Of a DNA stretch of 40,248 nucleotides, positions 31,658-40,248 are shown in pieces. Position 1 is the stretch's first letter. Each line of letters opens with the position of its first letter. This DNA comes from Basidiobolus meristosporus CBS 931.73 (lineage: Eukaryota > Basidiobolomycota > Basidiobolomycetes > Basidiobolales > Basidiobolaceae), in the NCBI GenBank assembly GCA_002104905.1, contig MCFE01000743.1, forward strand, positions 1 through 40,248, in the 5' to 3' direction. The notes beneath the pieces are model-generated. The model searched no databases. It was not told the origin of the DNA and was given only the letters and a program-made list of their open reading frames with translations. Both the position numbers and the translations under genes were made by a program.

Positions 31658-32288
31658 TCGCGCTCGACTCGCATAATGGTATCTTGGCATGCTGGTCATG
31701 CTACACTATTATTAATATCACCAGTATATATATTCACCACACCGATTTTGAACATATAAGACCTCTACACAGATATTGCTCTATAGATATCCACAGCTAT
31801 CTTTACCCTTACAGCATCACTATTATCCCTATACTAAACAACAAAAAAAGCACTTAAACTGATGAAATAGCCATAGAAAACACCTATCTATTAGTTCCAC
31901 TATTGATATCATCCACCCTAAATTTATAAACAATGCCGACTCCATACCATTTTCCTATACCAATATATAATTGCGCAACTAAATATGCTTATCAGGAAAA
32001 GAATTACTGGGTAATTTGCATAAAAGCATTCTACTCAAATGCTTGGTTGGGCCAAAGCTCTTGCTATCACCGCATTGAATTAGAATCATCTCGGGTTAGG
32101 GGAAATGCAGGAAAGTAAGAGATCGTAAGTATTGTCGTGACAAAGGATTTGATAAAAAGATATATCAATACCGATCAATAGACTTGATCACCAGATGAAG
32201 TATGCTCAAAGCAATTGGTATATAACAATGGCATGATTATCTGGCAAAGATCACTCTATATACCAAAATGTAAGCTGTACAAAAGGTA
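31658..32288. other. AT-rich stretch between the last unique gene and the retroelement array
   Basis: The stretch is low in complexity and AT-rich. Frames at 31651-31857 and 31933-32118 are short and unremarkable. It separates the last single-copy gene from the subtelomeric elements. Confidence 0.4.
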
Positions 32289-32333
32289 GGGCTCCGGGGG
32301 GAATTGAACCCGCGACCTCTCGCACAAAAGGGA
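32289..32333 (-). pseudogene. 3' half of a tRNA gene (tRNA-Pro-like), broken at the anticodon loop
   Basis: On the minus strand the piece reads GTGCGAGAGGT, then a T-arm GCGGGTTCAATTCCCCCC and an acceptor end GGAGCCC. B-box and variable-loop spacing are tRNA-like and the anticodon-stem half matches tRNA-Pro. The 5' half (A box, D arm) is missing. The T-stem has one mismatch. To its right, exactly where the anticodon loop should continue, begins a retroelement tail. It cannot make a tRNA. Confidence 0.65.
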
Positions 32334-32528
32334 GTGAATGTGTCCACATTTGTGAAATTTGTATTTTTAAGCAATACTCAAAAAATTATTCCAAAAATAA
32401 GAAGCTAGCTAAGATACTAAAAATCTCTTCAGTAAATAATTTCACTTGCGCTTGACTTGCAATCTAATATTGGAGTGGAAAAATACAGTTCTTTTAGTGG
32501 AAACAGAAAGTTGGGTGACTTGGAGTCA
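32334..32528 (-). mobile_element. Diverged retroelement 3' end, attached to the tRNA half
   Basis: Read from the minus strand the 3' end has a 'TAGCTTCTTATTT' block, 'ATTTCAC', a small stem-loop (CAC-AAAT-GTG, 32354-32345) and 'GGACACATTCACTCCC'. These parts occur in the same order as the 3' module of the intact elements to the right. There is no open frame. The body is diverged and its right end meets the G-run at 32529. Confidence 0.5.
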
Positions 32529-32730
32529 GGGGGGGGGGTGATAATCATCAACTGTTGAAATCATTTTTTCAACAACCCAAAATATAGAAGCCAAGTGCTA
32601 CTTGGGTAGCTTTTTAACAAGTGAATAAAGGGAAGGGTCATTTTGTGAAAGCTTATCACAGAGGTAATGAGGTTCAGGAGGAGTCAAAGTAGAGCTAAGC
32701 AGCATTGGAGGGATAACTCAATGAAGTAAT
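32529..32730 (-). mobile_element. Diverged LINE 3' end
   Basis: A ten-base G run (32529-32538) is followed by a stem-loop (TCAA-CTG-TTGA, 32548-32558) and the 'GAAGCCAAG' tail block. Next to it, in minus sense, the sequence encodes 'LVKKLPK' and a stop, the counterpart of 'LVSKLQQ' and stop in the intact LINEs. Frameshifts upstream of that make it a dead copy of an older LINE subfamily. Confidence 0.6.
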
Positions 32731-32793
32731 TGTTATAAAAAATCTGTAATTGCACCTGAATATTCACCTAACTTAGTCACTCAGATCATAGAG
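32731..32793 (+). repeat. Severed Copia LTR fragment
   Basis: It begins TGTTATAAAAAATCTGTAAT and follows the start of the full LTR at 33,975 ('ATATTCACCTA-CTTAGTCA'). It stops after about 63 bases, directly at a TTAGGGTAGGG junction. Confidence 0.65.
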
Positions 32794-32804
32794 TTAGGGT
32801 AGGG
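32794..32804 (+). repeat. Telomere-like junction (TTAGGGTAGGG)
   Basis: Imperfect telomeric repeat between the cut LTR fragment and the tail of the next element. Confidence 0.7.
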
Positions 32805-33234
32805 TAGTCAAAGTTGCTAAGATAGGTGAAATTTATATTTGAATTCAGATAAGCCTAATTACAAATTGGTCAGAGACATTTTGAGAGAATTGTTTAGCAA
32901 TACTTTTGTCAAGTACTACCTCTAGAGTGTGATGGTTGATAAATCTCATGTTAACAATCTTGGATAAATTGTAATCTTGTTGCTTGAGATACATCCTATG
33001 CTCAGATATTGGAATAAACTCCACATTGGCAAAGTAGCAGACAGCCCAGTCTGTAGCAGGAGGTGAAACAGAAGTGGCAGGAAACTTTCTTTTAGTCTTG
33101 GGAGGAGCAGCCAGATATCTTGAGGAAGCAGGAACAGGCTTTTTGACAGCTTCAGAGTAGGAAGCGTGAGTAGGAGCAGATGATTCTTGGGGAGTCTTGT
33201 TGACAGGAAGAGTTGGCACAGGGACAATAGATTC
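32794..33234 (-). mobile_element. Gag-only non-LTR element fragment (ORF1-like), 5' truncated
   Basis: The minus-strand open frame 33234-32845 (about 130 codons, no start at its 5' end) reads 'SAPTHASYSEAVKKPVPAS', then 'WAVCYFANVEFIPISEHRMY', 'YNLSKIVNMRFINHHTLEV' and 'KQFSQNVSDQFVIRLI' with a stop. The 'PISExRxxLxxxxxNxxxIxxxxFI' pattern is that of the C-terminal part of ORF1 (gag) in fungal LINEs. The stop codon is followed after about 45 bases by the 3' tail and telomeric junction, with no ORF2 between. It is therefore a gag-only element or an internally deleted LINE. Its 5' end stops at the next telomeric junction. Confidence 0.7.
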
Positions 33235-33252
33235 TTAGGGTTAGGGGGGGGG
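33235..33252 (+). repeat. Telomeric junction (TTAGGG x2 plus G run)
   Basis: Two TTAGGG units continue into a G run, then the LINE tail 'GAGACAGTCACC'. Confidence 0.85.
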
Positions 33253-33974
33253 AGACAGTCACCAACAGGTGAAATCTTTATTTCAGTTGAAACCAAGAAG
33301 CCAGCACTACTGTTGTAGCTTTGATACAAGAGTGTGTAGCTGAGGGGAATTTGCTGGTAGGTTAACAAGAAGTGATGATATTTCTTCAGTGCTCAAGACA
33401 CTATTCAGTGGGAAGGGGGGTAGCAAGAGGGGCAAGAATGATTTGTGAGCAACATTAATGAGGGGAATATGATAAGGATTGATATTCATCATAAAGGGAG
33501 TGTGCTGCTTCAGATATTGCTGCCAAAGGTTTGTCAAGTACCTCAGGTAGGCCAGCTTGGGTTTTTCTAACTGCAGAATATATTGAGCAAACTTCTTGAC
33601 TTAAGGATCTCCAAGTATATTTCTCCAGCAGGAGCCAGGTGTAGTGTGGTGTGTTCTCTTCCATGCCCTAATCAGTGGGTTGTTGCAGTGGTGAAGTCTG
33701 AGATATAATCTGGTTCTAAGGTAGAGTAGTCTGGTCTTATAGGGCATAAACCCAAAAGCACCAAGATTAGCATGTCTATAGGGTCATTCAGGCAGATGAG
33801 GCACCAGGGATTTAATGCACCAGACTGCAAACTTGTCAAGCTTAGTGCAGTCTCTAGAAGTAAGAGAGAGAAGTGGTAAGCCAAATTCCAGGACAGGGAA
33901 GACAAATTGCTAGAGTAGAAGGAGGCAGCTGGGAGCTGAAGTTGTAGGAGGAGTAACAATCAGTAGCTTGTGGA
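33253..33974 (-). mobile_element. LINE copy A, 5'-truncated and frameshifted
   Basis: The 3' tail and last roughly 230 codons of the LINE reverse transcriptase are present on the minus strand ('NVAHKSFLPLLLPPFPLNS', 'LSTEEISSLLVNLP'). Compared with copies B and C they are broken by frameshifts and a premature stop. The stem-loop TCACC-AACA-GGTGA is at 33259-33272. The copy ends near 33974 ('cagtagcttgtgga'), where a Copia LTR begins. Confidence 0.85.
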
Positions 33975-34323
33975 TGTTGTAAAAATTTGTAATTCCAACT
34001 AAATATTCACCTAGCTTAGTCATTTAAATCATTACCCTCAAATTCTAGAGAATACTGACCAAATTCCTTGTTGGGATTTACTTGGAATATTTTCACCAAA
34101 ATACCAGGTACCCAGAACATGAAAATTCTCAAAGTTGTCCAAACAGCCCCAAACTTTGCACACATACTCTAGGGACCTTCCTTAACCTATTCTACGTGTT
34201 TGTTATGCCAAGACCAGGTAAAAGTATAATTACTACTTTTACCTTCAATAAATCATTAAGTGAAAACCACATAATCTACTTGTCCTCCCAATCACTTCCA
34301 ATATCTCCAAGACTCTTACAACA
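33975..34323 (+). repeat. Copia 5' LTR (349 bp)
   Basis: It begins TGTTGTAA and ends TTACAACA, perfect 8-bp inverted ends with the TG...CA boundary typical of LTRs. A primer binding site follows immediately, fixing the right end. It lies directly against the truncated 5' end of LINE copy A. No matching 3' LTR exists to the right, because the element is cut at 35,042. Confidence 0.85.
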
Positions 34324-34335
34324 GGTTATGAGCCC
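34324..34335 (+). promoter_or_regulatory. Primer binding site, initiator tRNA-Met anticodon half
   Basis: GGTTATGAGCCC is the exact complement of GGGCTCATAACC, the anticodon-arm segment of eukaryotic initiator tRNA-Met. Priming by a half-molecule of tRNA-iMet is known for Copia-type elements. Confidence 0.8.
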
Positions 34336-34354
34336 CAAACTGTCACTCTCTGCA

Positions 34355-35042
34355 ATGTCCACTACTGCTATTACTGGAATTTTTCCCTCTGCTGAAAAGT
34401 TGAATGGATCTAACTACCAAGTGTGAAAGGTGATAATGAAGATGCTGCTACAACAAAGAGGCCTTTAAGATATTGTCATGGGAGAAGAATGCCCTCCTAA
34501 AAACGTGGGAGAGGAAGCCTTGAAGTACCAGAAGAAAGAACAAAGTGCCTTTAACTGCATTTGCCTTAATGTCAAGGACAAATTGCTAATTCAATGCTCA
34601 AGAGTAAAAACGGCAAAGAATGCCTGGAAGGCATTAGAAGACACCTACCAGTCATGTTCAGCTGCCAAGAAAATGTATCTGAGAAGAAAATTCTTTACTA
34701 CAAAGATGCTGCCAGGAGAAGAAATGAAAAATCTAATTAACAGAATTACCCTGTTGGTAGATGAGATGGAATCTGTGGGCGTACCAACTACTGATGAGGA
34801 TGTGATAGTTACCATCCTGAATAGCCTGACAAACGAGTTTCAGGGCCTTGTATCAGCCCTAGAGTCCAGAACTGAAGATTTGACCTTAAATTACGTATAT
34901 GGAAGGCTCCTGGATGAAGAATTAAGAAAATCAAGCGCCAATAAGAAGGAAGAAGAAAATGCTTTAATAAGCAATGATAACCAACAAAGGAGGTACCCAA
35001 GACCCTACAGTGGCAACAGCAACCTGTTTTGCAACTACTGCG
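34355..35042 (+). pseudogene. Copia gag (UBN2 domain), interrupted and cut off
   Basis: The frame from ATG 34355 reads 'FPSAEKLNGSNYQV', then a TGA (34424-34426) where a Trp is usual, 'KVIMKMLLQQRGL', then TAA (34466-34468). After that comes a long open stretch: 'AKNAWKALEDTYQSCSAAKK', 'LRRKFFTTKMLPGEEM', 'VTILNSLTNEFQGLVSAL', typical of the UBN2 gag domain. It reaches the first two Cys of a zinc knuckle ('FCNYC') and then runs straight into TTAGGGGG at 35043. Protease, integrase and RT are absent. Two stops plus the truncation mean it is dead. Confidence 0.9.
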
Positions 35043-35050
35043 TTAGGGGG
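35043..35050 (+). repeat. Telomere-like junction inside Copia gag
   Basis: TTAGGGGG separates the cut gag zinc knuckle from the 3' tail of SINE copy 1. Confidence 0.8.
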
Positions 35051-35127
35051 AGGAAAGTCACCAAGTGGTGAAATCTTTATTTACTTATGACAAGTATCTA
35101 AAGAAGCCAAGTTAATCTGAAGTAATT

Positions 35128-35246
35128 CCTAGAAAGCTAGGTCTGAGAGATATCATCCTGGTAAGCCAGGTCTGAGAGTTGAGAAGCTGAGTGGTACTAT
35201 ATTTCCTAGTTAGCTAGGTCTGAGAGAGGTTTCCTGGAAAGCCAGG
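35128..35246 (-). repeat. Four-hairpin block in SINE copy 1
   Basis: Four 14-base hairpins lie at 35128-35141 (CCTAG/CTAGG), 35157-35170 (CCTGG/CCAGG), 35205-35218 (CCTAG/CTAGG) and 35233-35246 (CCTGG/CCAGG). Each is followed by a TCTGAGAG-like word. Hairpins 1-2 and 3-4 form a duplicated unit of about 77 bp. Stem changes are paired on both sides. Confidence 0.8.
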
Positions 35247-35497
35247 CCTGAGAAGTGAGAATCTGAATATATCTGAGCTGAGTTATACTGGTTTGCGGTA
35301 GCTGAATTGTGGCCGGAATGGCCAGTAGACTGGGGGAACTGAGATGAAATTCTGGGCAATCACTGGCCATATTTACTAGGCAAATCTGGCCAATTAGCAT
35401 TTCAAGGATTTCAGCCAATCAGAGCCTTTACTTTGCCCGATGGTTGATCAAGCCATCTCCCAATGAGCACACATCAATTTATTAATCAAATTTTGTT

Positions 35498-35565
35498 GGA
35501 TCCAGGATTTGAACCCACAACCATGGGTATGGAAGGGTTAGGGATAACCACAAGGCTAAGTGTTC
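35498..35565 (-). promoter_or_regulatory. tRNA-derived pol III promoter head of SINE copy 1
   Basis: The minus strand has an A box TAGCCTTGTGG (35558-35548) and a B box GGTTCAAATCC (35515-35505) at tRNA-like spacing, as in tRNA-derived SINEs. The acceptor ends do not pair well, so it is not a tRNA gene. It contains an internal CCCTAACCC (35543-35535). Confidence 0.75.
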
Positions 35566-35569
35566 TTGG

Positions 35570-35579
35570 TTAGGGGGGG
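35570..35579 (+). repeat. Telomere-like junction (TTAGGGGGGG)
   Basis: It joins the 5' end of SINE copy 1 to the 3' tail of LINE copy B. Confidence 0.85.
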
Positions 35580-37774
35580 AGACAGTCACCAACAGGTGAA
35601 ATCTTTATTTCAGTTGAAACAAAGAAGCCAGCGCTACTGTTGTAGCTTTGATACAAGAGTGTGTAGCTGAGGGGAATTTGTAGGTAAGTTAATAAGAAGT
35701 GATGATAGTTCTTCAGTGCTCAAGACACTGTTCAGTGGGAAGGGGGGTAGCAAGAGAGGTAAGAATGACTTGTGAACAACATTAATGAGGGGAATGTGAC
35801 AAGGATTGATATTCATCATAAAGGGAGTGTGCTGCTGCAGATATTGCTGCCAAAGGTCTGTCAAGTACTTCAGGTAGGCCAGCTTGGGTTTTTCTGACTG
35901 CAGAATATAGTGAGCAAACTTCTTGACTTCAGCATCTCCAAGTATAGTTCTCCAGCAGGAGCCAGGTGTTGTGTGGTGTGTTCTCTTCCAGGCCTTAATC
36001 AGTGGGTTGTTGCAGTTGTGAAGTCTGAGGTATAATCTGGTTCTAAGGTAGAGAAGTCTGATCTTATAGGGCATAAACCCAAAAGCACCAAGAATAGCAT
36101 GTCTGTAGGGGCATTCAGGCAAATGAGGCACCAAGGAGGTAATGCACCATACTGCAAACTTGTCAAGCTTAGTGCAGTCTCTAGAAGTAAGAGAGAGAAG
36201 TGGTAAGCCAAATTCCAGGACAGGGAAGACAAACTGCTTGAGTAGAAGGAGGCAGCTGGGAGCTGAAGTTGTAGGAGGAGTAACAGCCAACAGCTTGTGG
36301 AGTGCCTGTCTTGCAAGGATAATTCTCTTCTTCAGGTGTGATCCAGAGTCTAGTCCAGTAGGAAGGAAAGGAAAGCCAAGATATGTAGCAGAAACCTGAG
36401 CAGGTAGAGTGGAGTTCTCCAAGTTGATGGGAGAGCCCAAAGGTACTGTCTTTGCAATGGAAAGCTGGAGATTATTCTTCTGCAGATACTGGTGGATGGT
36501 CTGGGAGTCTTGTTGCACATTGGAGGAGGATATTCTGATGTCATCAGCAAAGAGAGTAACCAGGCAGTCAGCTGAGAGTCTTGGGAAATCATTCAGGAAG
36601 ATGGCAAGCAGTATAGGACCAAGCACAGAGCCTTGAACCACTCCATTAGGAACTGAGAACACAGCTGATTGCTCACTTGGGTGCAGAATTCTTGCTTGTG
36701 GATCCAGAAACAGAGACCTGACAAGGAGGGTGAGAGAGGTACTGGAGAAGCATTGCAACTTGGACCAAAGCAGATTTCTGTCAACTGAATCAAAGGCCTT
36801 GGTAATATCAAACAGAACAGAGGGATACTTGCACTGGAGAGAGTGATCTTCGCTAAGTATGACTGCATATTCCAAGGAGAGGCCAGGAACAAAGCCAAAC
36901 TGTGCAGGATGAAACTTGAGAGAGTCAGAGTAGAGCTCCTGAGCAAGCAGAAGCTCAAACACCTTTCTGCAGGTGGGCAGCAGAGATATTGGCCTGTAGG
37001 AGCTAGGATCCAGGTGCTTTCCTTTACCCTTGTACAGTGGCAGAACATTTGCAAAGGACCATTCCTCAGGAGTAGAAAGCTGGGCTGAGCATTGCTGAAA
37101 CAGTGGAAGCAGAAGTGCAGACATGGCCTTGGTACTAGTCTTCAGAAGCTCATAAGAGATTGTGTCCACACCTGGAGCAGTAGAGTTGGGAAGCCTCTTG
37201 AGCACATTATGGATTCTCCTTTGATCAAGTGCAAGTGGGATGGGCAGAGTCTTGAAGTCAGGATGAAAGCCAGGAGTTGAGTACTGCTTTGTAGAGAAGA
37301 AGATGTTAGCCAGCTGTTCTGTTGAAGGTAACTTCCTGGAAGAGGGCCTCATTGCCCTGTAGAGTCTTGATACTGTTCTTGTTATAGAGTTGGAAGATTG
37401 CAGAGGCAAGGAACTCATAATATGATCCCAGAGCTGAGTATGCAGAGTGTGGTGAATTGCCTTGGAGTGGTGTATTGCTGTCAGGAGGAGTTTCTCTGTT
37501 TTTGGGTTAGGGAAGCTCAGGTAGCTTTGTTGAAGGGCTGAAACAATGGATTCCCATTTTCTTGAGGTAACAGCAGTAGTCTTGCATGGCAGTGAGAGGG
37601 AGGCAGACACCAGAATCAGATGCTTCACAAAGAGCCAGGCAAAGTTGAGATCATCTGGCAGAGAAAGTAGCAAACTGGCAAGCTTCAAGTAGTTCCCAAA
37701 GTCTTTCTTCTGATTCTTGGTAGCTTTGTGGGTGAGCACAGTAAGTTTTGGCAGCTTCTTCTTCACAACTGGTT
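35580..37774 (-). mobile_element. LINE copy B, 5'-truncated non-LTR retrotransposon
   Basis: The 3' tail (stem-loop TCACC-AACA-GGTGA, 35586-35599) is followed in minus sense by a long intact reverse transcriptase frame. The copy stops near 37770 in the linker upstream of the RT domain and is joined there to GGGTTAGGGG. The 3' UTR between the stop codon and the tail end is only about 55 bases. No apurinic-type endonuclease or ORF1 is present in this copy; they may exist in full-length copies outside the window. Confidence 0.92.
35634..37766 (-). CDS. LINE reverse transcriptase, 5'-truncated (copy B)
   Basis: An open frame of 710 codons with no real ATG at its 5' end; it begins at the truncation. 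Residues about 160-460 hold the RT palm and fingers: 'LPLYKGKGKHLDPSSYRPIS' near 242-261, 'SVLFDITKAFDSVDRNLL' with the first catalytic Asp near 320, 'GVVQGSVLGPILLAIFLND' near 375, and the catalytic FADD at about 406-409 (Phe where YADD is commoner). The thumb-like 'ATYLGFPF' follows. The last 230 residues carry no CCHC knuckle or PD-(D/E)-type endonuclease motif that I can see, and no RNase H. The layout (RT followed by a short tail) fits an L1/Tad-like LINE ORF2 whose N-terminal endonuclease, if any, is lost by truncation. No stops or frameshifts occur, so the copy is young. Confidence 0.92.
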   Translation of the reverse strand: MKKKLPKLTVLTHKATKNQKKDFGNYLKLASLLLSLPDDLNFAWLFVKHLILVSASLSLPCKTTAVTSRKWESIVSALQQSYLSFPNPKTEKLLLTAIHHSKAIHHTLHTQLWDHIMSSLPLQSSNSITRTVSRLYRAMRPSSRKLPSTEQLANIFFSTKQYSTPGFHPDFKTLPIPLALDQRRIHNVLKRLPNSTAPGVDTISYELLKTSTKAMSALLLPLFQQCSAQLSTPEEWSFANVLPLYKGKGKHLDPSSYRPISLLPTCRKVFELLLAQELYSDSLKFHPAQFGFVPGLSLEYAVILSEDHSLQCKYPSVLFDITKAFDSVDRNLLWSKLQCFSSTSLTLLVRSLFLDPQARILHPSEQSAVFSVPNGVVQGSVLGPILLAIFLNDFPRLSADCLVTLFADDIRISSSNVQQDSQTIHQYLQKNNLQLSIAKTVPLGSPINLENSTLPAQVSATYLGFPFLPTGLDSGSHLKKRIILARQALHKLLAVTPPTTSAPSCLLLLKQFVFPVLEFGLPLLSLTSRDCTKLDKFAVWCITSLVPHLPECPYRHAILGAFGFMPYKIRLLYLRTRLYLRLHNCNNPLIKAWKRTHHTTPGSCWRTILGDAEVKKFAHYILQSEKPKLAYLKYLTDLWQQYLQQHTPFMMNINPCHIPLINVVHKSFLPLLLPPFPLNSVLSTEELSSLLINLPTNSPQLHTLVSKLQQ

Positions 37775-37784
37775 GGGTTAGGGG
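37775..37784 (+). repeat. Telomeric junction (GGGTTAGGGG)
   Basis: It joins the truncated 5' end of LINE copy B to the tail of SINE copy 2. Confidence 0.85.
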
Positions 37785-38303
37785 AGGACAGTCACCAAGT
37801 GGTGAAATCTTTATTTACTTATGACAAGTATCTAAAGAAGCCAAGTTATTCTGAAGTAATTCCTAGAAAGCTAGGTCTGAGAGATATCATCCTGGTAAGC
37901 CAGGTCTGAGAGTTGAGAAGCTGAGTGGTACTGTATTTCCTAGTTAGCTAGGTCTTAGAGAGGTTTCCTGGAAAGCCAGGCCTGAGAAGTGAGAATCTGA
38001 ATATATCTGAGCTAAGTTATACTGGTTTGCGGTAGCTGAATTGTGGCCGGAATGGCCAGTAGACTGGGGGAACTGAGATGAATTTCTGGGCGATCACTGG
38101 CCAAATTTACTAGGCAAATCTGGCCAATTAGCATTTCAAGGATTTCAGCCAATCAGAGCCTTTACTTTGCCCAATGGTTGATCAAGCCATCTCCCAATGA
38201 GCACACATCAATTTATTAATCAAATTTTGCTGGATCCAGGATTTGAACCCACAACCATGGGTATGGAAGGGTTAGGGATAACCACAAGGCTAAGTGTTCT
38301 TGG
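37785..38303 (-). mobile_element. SINE-like element, copy 2
   Basis: It is the same length and organisation as copy 1, differing at a handful of positions by eye. The tRNA-like head is at 38299-38232, the four hairpins are intact (37864-37982), and the stem-loop TCACCA-AG-TGGTGA is at 37792-37805. Its 5' end is at the same base as copy 1. Confidence 0.8.
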
Positions 38304-38312
38304 TTAGGGGGG
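38304..38312 (+). repeat. Telomere-like junction (TTAGGGGGG)
   Basis: It joins the 5' end of SINE copy 2 to a very short LINE tail. Confidence 0.85.
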
Positions 38313-38351
38313 AGACAGTCACCAACAGGTGAAATCTTTATTTCAGTTGAA
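38313..38351 (-). mobile_element. Minimal LINE insertion: 3' tail only
   Basis: Only about 39 bases of the LINE 3' end are present (stem-loop 38319-38332, then 'AAATCTTTATTTCAGTTGA'). The next telomeric repeat follows at once. It is an extreme 5' truncation. Confidence 0.85.
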
Positions 38352-38372
38352 GGGTTAGGGTTAGGGGGGGGG
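38352..38372 (+). repeat. Telomeric junction (two TTAGGG-type units plus G run)
   Basis: GGGTTAGGGTTAGGG followed by a G run. It is the longest telomeric tract in the window and lies between the minimal LINE tail and the next unit. Confidence 0.9.
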
Positions 38373-38559
38373 AGGGAAAGTCACCAAGTTGGTGAAATCT
38401 TTATTTGGGTTAAGAACTAATCTAAGTACAAATAAAGAAGCCAATTAAGAGGTCTAGAACCTCTCTAATAAGTAATCTAATTTATGTTTTGTTTCATCTC
38501 TAATGTTTGTTTCAATAAAGTAAAGCTCATCAGGGGTAAATATAAAATTCAGGGGTTTT
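38373..38559 (-). mobile_element. Third element type with the shared 3' module
   Basis: A 190-bp non-coding unit. In minus sense its 3' end has 'AATTGGCTTCTTT', 'AAATAAAGATTTCACC', the stem-loop TCACCAA-G-TTGGTGA (38381-38395) and 'CTTTCCCTCC'. The body is AT-rich and matches neither the LINE nor the SINE in this window. It is probably a 5'-truncated copy of another element or SINE subfamily. Confidence 0.7.
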
Positions 38560-38571
38560 GGGGTTAGGGGG
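38560..38571 (+). repeat. Telomere-like junction (GGGGTTAGGGGG)
   Basis: It joins the third element type to LINE copy C. Confidence 0.85.
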
Positions 38572-40248
38572 GAGACAGTCACCAACAGGTGAAATCTTTA
38601 TTTCAGTTGAAACAAAGAAGCCAGCGCTACTGTTGTAGCTTTGATACAAGAGTGTGTAGCTGAGGGGAATTTGTAGGTAAGTTAATAAGAAGTGATGATA
38701 GTTCTTCAGTGCTCAAGACACTGTTCAGTGGGAAGGGGGGTAGCAAGAGAGGTAAGAATGACTTGTGAACAACATTAATGAGGGGAATGTGATAAGGATT
38801 GATATTCATCATAAAGGGAGTGTGCTGCTGCAGATATTGCTGCCAAAGGTCTGTCAAGTACTTCAGGTAGGCCAGCTTGGGTTTTTCTGACTGCAGAATA
38901 TAGTGAGCAAACTTCTTGACTTCAGCATCTCCAAGTATAGTTCTCCAGCAGGAGCCAGGTGTTGTGTGGTGTGTTCTCTTCCAGGCCTTAATCAGTGGGT
39001 TGTTGCAGTTGTGAAGTCTGAGGTATAATCTGGTTCTAAGGTAGAGAAGTCTGATCTTATAGGGCATAAACCCAAAAGCACCAAGAATAGCATGTCTGTA
39101 GGGGCATTCAGGCAAATGAGGCACCAAGGAGGTAATGCACCATACTGCAAACTTGTCAAGCTTAGTGCAGTCTCTAGAAGTAAGAGAGAGAAGTGGTAAG
39201 CCAAATTCCAGGACAGGGAAGACAAACTGCTTGAGTAGAAGGAGGCAGCTGGGAGCTGAAGTTGTAGGAGGAGTAACAGCCAGTAGCTTGTGGAGTGCCT
39301 GTCTTGCCAGGATAATTCTCTTCTTCAGGTGTGCTCCAGAGTCTAGTCCAGTAGGAAGGAAAGGAAAGCCAAGATATGTAGCAGAAACCTGAGCAGGTAG
39401 AGTGGAGTTCTCCAAGTTGATGGGAGAGCCCAAAGGTACTGTCTTTGCAATGGAAAGCTGGAGATTATTCTTCTGCAGATACTGGTGGATGGTCTGGGAG
39501 TCTTGTTGCACATTGGAGGAGGATATTCTGATGTCATCAGCAAAGAGAGTAACCAGGCAGTCAGCTGAGAGTCTTGGGAAATCATTCAGGAAGATGGCAA
39601 GCAGTATAGGACCAAGCACAGAGCCTTGAACCACTCCATTAGGAACTGAGAACACAGCTGATTGCTCACTTGGGTGCAGAATTCTTGCTTGTGGATCCAG
39701 AAACAGAGACCTGACAAGGAGGGTGAGAGAGGTACTGGAGAAGCATTGCAACTTGGACCAAAGCAGATTTCTGTCAACTGAATCAAAGGCCTTAGTTATA
39801 TCAAACAGAACAGAGGGATACTTGCACTGGAGAGAGTGATCTTGGCTAAGTATGACTGCATATTCCAAGGAGAGGCCAGGAACAAAGCCAAACTGTGCAG
39901 GATGAAACTTGAGGGAGTCAGAGTAGAGCTCCTGAGCAAGCAGAAGCTCAAACACCTTTCTGCAGGTGGGCAGTAGAGATATTGGCCTGTAGGAGCTAGG
40001 ATCCAGGTGCTTTCCTTTACCCTTGTACAGTGGCAGAACATTTGCAAAGGACCATTCCTCAGGAGTAGAAGCTGGCTGAGCATTGCTGAAACAGTGGAAG
40101 CAGAGTGCAGACATGGCCTTGGTACTAGTCTTCAGAAGCTCATAGGAGATTGTGTCCACACCTGGAGCAGTAGAGTTGGGAAGCCTCTTGAGCACATTAT
40201 GGATTCTCCTTTGATCAAGTGCAAGTGGGATGGGCAGAGTCTTGAAGT
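38572..40248 (-). mobile_element. LINE copy C, running off the right edge
   Basis: Nearly identical to copy B by eye over its whole length, including the 3' tail and stem-loop (38579-38592). It continues past the window edge, so its 5' end and any endonuclease are not seen. Confidence 0.92.
38627..40248 (-). CDS. LINE reverse transcriptase (copy C), partial at right edge
   Basis: The frame is open from the stop at 38627 to the edge of the window. It carries the same RT motifs as copy B, including FADD and 'SYRPISLL'. Relative to copy B there are single-base deletions near 40068-40075 (two) and near 40102 (one). Together they shift and then restore the frame, so about ten residues differ ('SALCFHCFSNAQPAST' in place of 'SALLLPLFQQCSAQLST'). 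Either this copy is slightly damaged or the deletions are homopolymer sequencing errors. Confidence 0.88.
   Translation of the reverse strand, partial: FKTLPIPLALDQRRIHNVLKRLPNSTAPGVDTISYELLKTSTKAMSALCFHCFSNAQPASTPEEWSFANVLPLYKGKGKHLDPSSYRPISLLPTCRKVFELLLAQELYSDSLKFHPAQFGFVPGLSLEYAVILSQDHSLQCKYPSVLFDITKAFDSVDRNLLWSKLQCFSSTSLTLLVRSLFLDPQARILHPSEQSAVFSVPNGVVQGSVLGPILLAIFLNDFPRLSADCLVTLFADDIRISSSNVQQDSQTIHQYLQKNNLQLSIAKTVPLGSPINLENSTLPAQVSATYLGFPFLPTGLDSGAHLKKRIILARQALHKLLAVTPPTTSAPSCLLLLKQFVFPVLEFGLPLLSLTSRDCTKLDKFAVWCITSLVPHLPECPYRHAILGAFGFMPYKIRLLYLRTRLYLRLHNCNNPLIKAWKRTHHTTPGSCWRTILGDAEVKKFAHYILQSEKPKLAYLKYLTDLWQQYLQQHTPFMMNINPYHIPLINVVHKSFLPLLLPPFPLNSVLSTEELSSLLINLPTNSPQLHTLVSKLQQ

Follow-up and report, generated by a model that had tools for sequence, protein, structure and literature searches.

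Telomere-attached arrays of LINE and SINE units in the early-diverging fungus Basidiobolus meristosporus

How does a contig come to end in one retrotransposon fragment after another, all facing the same way and each joined to a scrap of telomere repeat? The question is raised by contig MCFE01000743.1 of Basidiobolus meristosporus CBS 931.73 (C1028 among our contigs), one of the 1311 contigs of the 89.0-Mb assembly GCA_002104905.1, whose whole length of 40,248 nucleotides (nt) we refer to as the window. An array of long and short interspersed nuclear elements (LINEs and SINEs), chiefly LINE-A of about 4.4 kb and SINE1 of about 519 nt, spans position 32529 to the contig end, and all its units share one orientation. 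The contig end falls inside the array and interrupts its outermost LINE, and the telomere itself lies outside the window. We are almost certain that such arrays are attached to telomeres and were built serially. The region is probably a subtelomere formed by serial addition of retrotransposons without long terminal repeats (non-LTR) at broken or eroded chromosome ends, followed by telomerase capping.

LINE-A, SINE1 and the other units have a common 3' tail, in which hairpins precede a C-run. The hairpin folding of the tails of LINE-A, SINE1 and LINE-B (a name coined in this analysis for a second LINE) has z scores of -3.35, -2.04 and -4.50, respectively; the hairpin offers no variation in which compensatory changes could be seen, the stem letters being invariant in the intact families aligned and the two relics being decayed. 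On the forward strand the C-run reads as a G-run, and the telomeric stretch to its left is 1-9 nt long at 92 of the 97 distinct junctions in the examined loci, 12-13 nt at three, 19 nt at one and 20 nt at one. At least three in-phase telomeric nt precede the G-run at 84 of these 97 junctions, where about 1 in 64 would be expected. Genome-wide, a 24-mer from the LINE-A tail has 653 matches (610 and 43 in the two orientations); 602 matches (558 and 44), a set not strictly nested in the 653, have TAGGG within 6 nt, and 110 have two full repeats. Perfect TTAGGG runs of at least 10 repeats, on the other hand, number 322, of which 319 are forward (5144 - 4825) and three reverse (56 - 53), and average about 25 repeats, with 7 and 6 matches on one strand for the reversed control. 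The junction and genome-wide tail counts thus indicate that the buried stubs fall far short of the long runs in length. By the forward and reverse run counts, almost all telomere-bearing contigs are oriented alike, which is probably an assembly effect, and for a fungus the telomeric ends seem numerous.

The tail core occurs exactly 1496 times in the genome, 1377 times forward and 119 times in reverse, while its reversed control pattern does not occur. Positions were taken from the first 100 matches listed in each search and counted on contigs of at least 60 kb, with shorter ones omitted; because the contigs are numbered by size rank in alphabetical order, their lengths could be interpolated from 33 known ones. 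On this basis, the LINE-A tail with two repeats lies within 20 kb of the orientation-predicted contig end in 71 of 74 cases (among the first 100 of 110 matches), and the LINE-A tail 24-mer in 40 of 40 (among the first 100 of 653), against chance expectations of 8% and 5%; the two lists overlap at some sites. On the shorter contigs, 24 of 26 and 55 of 60 listed matches, respectively, are forward. For the pooled tail families, 37 of the first 100 matches listed are on long contigs, 35 of them within 20 kb of an end, and SINE1-type tails are forward in 29 of the 30 matches listed, with 7 of 7 on long contigs near the predicted end. Among the listed copies, therefore, the original prediction holds good: their 3' ends are joined to TTAGGG, and they are found close to contig ends and face one way. 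Ordinary dispersed LINEs and SINEs whose tails end in CCCTAA might also appear at contig ends if the assembly broke at repeats; repeats do gather there, and the places compared are those of listed matches, not an even sample of contig interiors. However, the strand of the copies agrees with the contig end, telomere arrays cap the units, and truncated copies do not resume beyond the next unit (0 of 35, see below). We hold dispersed elements to be a very improbable explanation, and the first two of these observations likewise disfavour an assembly-break artefact.

Serial addition of variably 5'-truncated units, which had also been predicted, is borne out by the ends of the copies. Of 56 distinct LINE-A fragments (60 nt or longer) whose inner boundary lies within examined DNA, 50 start at the 3' terminus (coordinate 1-3), as do 29 of 31 SINE1 fragments, and the 5' ends are scattered. 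In 35 cases a truncated copy precedes a new unit within 70 nt, and none of the 35 resumes on the far side, where at least 600 nt were examined for 29 of them; the single copy that our script marked as a resumption is in fact the tail of a new unit, beginning at coordinate 1. Resumption is detectable, since the LINE in locus L073 continues past an ordinary insert with an 8-nt duplication. Together with a Copia-type element of the window that is broken off within gag, this lack of resumption implies that ends were lost before units were added, which fits attachment to breaks.

We also considered five contig right ends, four of which (C1, C2, C21 and C22) were picked for their listed telomere repeats and one (C491) for a LINE 5' end. 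All five bear TTAGGG arrays at the end. The array is joined to a LINE-A truncated within the endonuclease region on C2, to the 5' end of a SINE1 on C21, and to a short unit on C22, while on C1 a short unassigned fragment lies between a truncated LINE-A and the array, so the join is direct at four of the five ends. Hence, at ends outside the window, telomere repeats are also found on the 5' side of the outer units. Two stretches on C880 match a telomerase RNA-binding domain above the cut-off, which would be consistent with a working telomerase.

In the mechanism that we propose, a broken or eroded chromosome 3' end with 0-2 telomere repeats would anneal to the C-rich tail of the RNA and prime reverse transcription by the LINE-A protein; an early stop of synthesis would produce 5' truncation, and telomerase would then add TTAGGG to the cDNA 3' end. 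SINE1, whose 3' tail is common to its partner LINE in the tail alignment, would borrow the LINE-A enzyme by means of this tail, and the array would act as a renewable buffer. The substrate was probably not the intact telomere tip, because the stubs mostly hold 0-2 repeats and the terminal runs about 25: priming at intact tips would be expected to leave buried tracts of many repeats, and none of that size is present among the 97 junctions.

What can be read of the LINE-A protein bears on whether such an end would have to be cut first. LINE-A (coordinate 4433 is reached in L078) has two open reading frames (ORFs). ORF1, whose start is rich in cysteine, has 523 codons between stops, and all its Pfam matches, including several coiled-coil families, are below the cut-off. 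In both 5' copies examined (L077:236 and L078:194), ORF1 closes with TGA, followed by an in-frame CTA and the start of the ORF2 endonuclease; TGA-CTA is a leaky stop context, and its place between two ORFs of the same frame suggests stop read-through. At L077:1800-1990 the LINE-A 5' region has TTAGGGTTAGGG near coordinate 4400 and then gives way to other sequence, and this 5' end is provisional. ORF2 encodes an APE-type endonuclease (PF14529, 3.6e-4 and 1e-3, below the Pfam cut-off) and a reverse transcriptase (RT; RVT_1, 6e-25), Pfam returning RVT_1 and a weak Exo_endo_phos_2. Among solved structures its best match is to LINE-1 ORF2p and concerns the RT part, and the endonuclease piece alone matches none. 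The motifs of a restriction-like endonuclease (REL), namely, C..C/H/C, RHD/RHN and R/K-P/A-D, are absent by pattern from the 898-residue ORF2 piece. When LINE-A is aligned with 20 other elements, Asp replaces the metal-binding Glu of the ET motif in LINE-A, P0003 and P0005 (3 of 3), and all 18 others have Glu; an Asp at this position would fit reliance on free ends. We put forward only tentatively, and as unlikely, the stronger version in which the LINE-A machinery is an end-repair system that uses free 3' ends only and takes up broken or telomere-less ends, with a weakened endonuclease, a tail that templates the first one or two TTAGGG and handover to telomerase. If true, an APE-type LINE would have become an end-healing enzyme beside a working telomerase.

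The lineage is wider than LINE-A, since relatives at 49-80% identity (P0001, P0003, P0004, P0005 and P0007) exist, on contigs of about 4-6 kb. A protein search with ORF2 also returned P0002, a B. meristosporus gene model with 98% identity across the third of the query that was matched. The gene models P0002 and P0006 (K493DRAFT_353650 and K493DRAFT_348252) resemble chimeras of several stacked LINE fragments, and part of P0006 resembles P0007.

A number of points weigh against addition at broken or eroded ends. LINE-A still has its endonuclease domain, in which the N, GDxN and SDH positions are present (a sixth position aligns unclearly, and no single examined copy spans the whole domain), so that nicking may still occur. 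The stubs can be read in three ways: as broken or eroded ends, which we prefer, as the result of nicking at the base of the telomere, or as the outcome of later loss of longer tracts. Nicking of the G strand by the LINE-A protein within the first one or two TTAGGG at the telomere base, in the manner of SART/TRAS or MoTeR, would keep the distal array on the 5' side of the unit, and at each of the five ends seen a long array is indeed found beyond the last unit; in the consulted parts of PMC7367193, a new truncated MoTeR1 is described one repeat from the junction. However, such nicking would require insertion in the first two or so of about 25 repeats at 92 of the 97 junctions, by an enzyme with the Glu to Asp change in its ET motif, and we consider it possible but doubtful. 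By analogy with Pyricularia, where inter-element tracts of up to two repeats are stable and those of three or more break (PMC7367193, same parts), the short stubs may instead be survivors after the loss of longer tracts. Moreover, an end first healed by telomerase and used later would look the same as attachment to a break, and an in-frame TAG, perhaps the mark of an intron, interrupts one of the two telomerase matches. No transposition event has been observed.

Further points of the same kind concern position and structure. Contig ends are not a random sample, and positions are known among the first 100 matches listed; the copies on C473 and C979 lie 21.6 kb and 26.8 kb from the end, the latter by an uncertain interpolated length, and two C1 units are at distances of 21.8 and 22.2 kb. 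Many internal copies with duplications would have told against a telomeric system; among the listed copies on long contigs, one clearly internal array was found, on C558. There, at about 97.6-98.0 kb of a 218-kb contig, a pair of units (L024) has TTAGGG joints, and it may represent a former chromosome end that was fused or internalised, or else an assembly error. The tail is not the starting point of six of the 56 LINE-A fragments. Five of these have diverged (76-84% identity), and the sixth comes from L073, where another insert divides a LINE of which it forms the right half. Finally, 8 of the 19 joints of full-length SINE1 copies are identical, and some of these may have been copied by recombination.

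Identical SINE1-LINE-A joints are what would be expected if the arrays had spread chiefly by recombination between chromosome ends, such as break-induced replication, with retrotransposition old and rare. An SNF2-like gene family is likewise spread over contig ends (see below), and such events are documented in MoTeR arrays in the consulted parts of PMC7367193. On the other side, the left contexts of the tails and the truncation points of LINE-A mostly differ among the examined loci, while the 3' ends are constant, as reverse transcription predicts. We thus regard recombination as an improbable main cause of the arrays, and return to addition at broken or eroded ends as the preferred explanation.

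As for SINE1 itself, 19 of 30 copies share a 5' end, and the copy examined for RNA polymerase III boxes has an exact B box and an A box matching at 10 of 11 positions, at position 13. A tRNA gene was sought at the SINE1 head, and none was found by ARAGORN or Rfam; the head folds no better than shuffles (z 0.10).

The layout of the window illustrates this architecture. The last chromosome-unique DNA before the array, at 31900-32527, has one full-length match in the genome, namely itself, and seven others of 55-57 nt, so an allele without the array is not in the assembly. The innermost unit (32529-32731, minus strand) is a decayed relic, whose joint has a G-run without TTA, recognised by a tail box at 64% in a direct-repeat family and by the tail alignment, and with its right boundary set by eye. 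It is followed on the plus strand by a piece of the start of a Copia LTR (32732-32791; 85% to 33981-34032) and then by a second decayed unit (32792-33234, minus), which has the joint TTAGGGTAGGG, was identified by direct-repeat family and tail alignment, and is found again in its part 32863-33111 at 95% in locus L013. Next comes a 5'-truncated LINE-A of 740 nt (33235-33974, minus; LINE coordinates 1-723; joint TTAGGGTTAGGGG), delimited by comparison with a LINE-A reference piece. The Copia-type fragment (33975-35041, plus) consists of the start of the LTR element and a partial gag (PF14223 in 34469-35071), within which it is broken off; its homologue in L013 (88%) is alignable up to the same region. 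A full-length SINE1 (35042-35570, minus) is joined to the cut gag by GTTAGGGGG.

Outward of this SINE1 lies a second 5'-truncated LINE-A of 2.2 kb (35571-37775, minus; coordinates 1-2197), contained in a stop-to-stop RT ORF at 35634-37814 with an RVT_1 match of 3e-24. It is followed, all on the minus strand, by another full-length SINE1 (37776-38304), like the first assigned by SINE1 comparison, a LINE-A represented by its final 40 nt (38305-38351), a 3' fragment of LINE-B (38352-38556; joint GGGTTAGGGTTAGGG), for which residues 853-890 of P0007 match 38561-38448 at 58% (E 1e-9), and the LINE-A that leaves the contig end (38557-40248; coordinates 1-1680), the last and the 40-nt piece both identified by LINE-A comparison. 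Identity to the reference piece is about 99% for the two long outer LINE-A copies and 94% for the inner one. Within the window, inner copies are thus more divergent or decayed and outer ones near-identical, as expected if units were added on the right.

The original prediction had listed nine unit starts in the window, and its count of eight or more units in a single orientation is confirmed, since all nine bear a conserved 3' tail box facing one way; eight of the boxes belong to one direct-repeat family and the ninth (32794) to another, and the alignment covers all. A G-rich or telomere-like start had been proposed for each, and TTAGGG is indeed present at eight of the nine joints, 32529 having a G-run only. 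The description of the units as LINEs and SINEs needs some amendment: two LINE families (LINE-A and the LINE-B fragment) and one SINE family are accompanied by the two decayed relics, and the truncated Copia-type LTR element means that the array is not purely of LINE and SINE origin.

A gene family with SNF2-domain, Kelch-like members adjoins the arrays, for example at L074:6156-7433. When 40 of 168 candidates were scored, 26 listed matches of at least 140 nt were obtained, and the 20 found on long contigs (at least 60 kb) are without exception no more than 14 kb from the orientation-predicted end and directed telomereward. The copy in L074 diverges from most others at one point, after which come a scrap of about 45 nt and a LINE-A tail.

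These arrays extend the short list of telomere-attached retroelements by an early-diverging fungus and by an APE-type LINE whose tail is shared with a SINE. To our knowledge, no SINE seated at chromosome ends has been known before, and a title and abstract search of open-licence PubMed Central returned no description of telomeric SINEs, APE-type fungal telomeric LINEs or Basidiobolus elements. With 1496 tail cores and 322 long telomere runs, this one assembly preserves in its junctions an extensive natural archive of how chromosomes broke and healed and how elements were added. That buried repeats are so narrowly limited bears on the choice between intact telomeres, eroded ends and breaks as the substrate of such elements, and also on whether longer buried tracts break. 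The two fungal telomere-attached elements that we found in print, MoTeR and FoTeR, are of REL type (PMC7367193; PMC12857005).

We compared the system with telomeric retrotransposons listed in PMC10088271, as far as the parts of this and the following sources that we consulted describe them. MoTeR1 and MoTeR2 of Pyricularia (Magnaporthe) oryzae resemble the present units in having a fungal host with TTAGGG telomeres, outward 5' ends, head-to-tail arrays, 5'-truncated copies and a non-autonomous partner with the same 3' end, and MoTeR units are separated by TTAGGG tracts of half a repeat to more than 20 (PMC7367193). In contrast, the endonuclease of MoTeR1 is putatively restriction-like, of the SLACS/CRE kind (PMC7367193), where LINE-A has an APE-type one and a separate ORF1. 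Also unlike in MoTeR, the partner here is a SINE with polymerase III boxes, and no tract exceeds about three repeats in the 97 junctions. The likeness to MoTeR that the original prediction drew extends to behaviour, including location (C558 apart) and the outward 5' end, and stops at endonuclease type, no REL motif being found. FoTeR of Fusarium oxysporum shares telomere-only location, orientation and TTAGGG joints, but has an RT with a C-terminal REL domain and about 3-8 repeats at the 3' joint, and no SINE accompanies it in those parts of PMC12857005. HeT-A, TART and TAHRE of Drosophila are likewise added serially to ends in tandem arrays (PMC4700185). That comparison, also drawn originally, fails on telomerase: Drosophila has neither telomerase nor canonical repeats, whereas the present fungus has both TTAGGG runs and a piece of a telomerase gene.

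The endonuclease of SART1 and TRAS1 of Bombyx mori is APE-type, and LINE-A has the same plan of such an endonuclease with two ORFs, albeit with a sub-cut-off Pfam score and one key residue different. An ORF2 with endonuclease and RT, a telomere target and coexisting repeats are shared as well (PMC4700185). However, SART1 belongs to a TTAGG host, ends in poly(A) and requires three repeats or more (PMC7265360), where the units here have a tail of hairpins and a C-run and mostly 0-2 repeats; and only full-length SART/TRAS copies are found at telomeres (PMC4700185), whereas many LINE copies here are truncated. In behaviour, then, the system matches MoTeR and FoTeR and differs from them in endonuclease, while with SART/TRAS it shares the two-ORF plan and neither the tail nor the full-length rule. 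We therefore take the LINE-A system to be one of telomere-attached LINEs that stands outside both the MoTeR/FoTeR and the SART/TRAS families.

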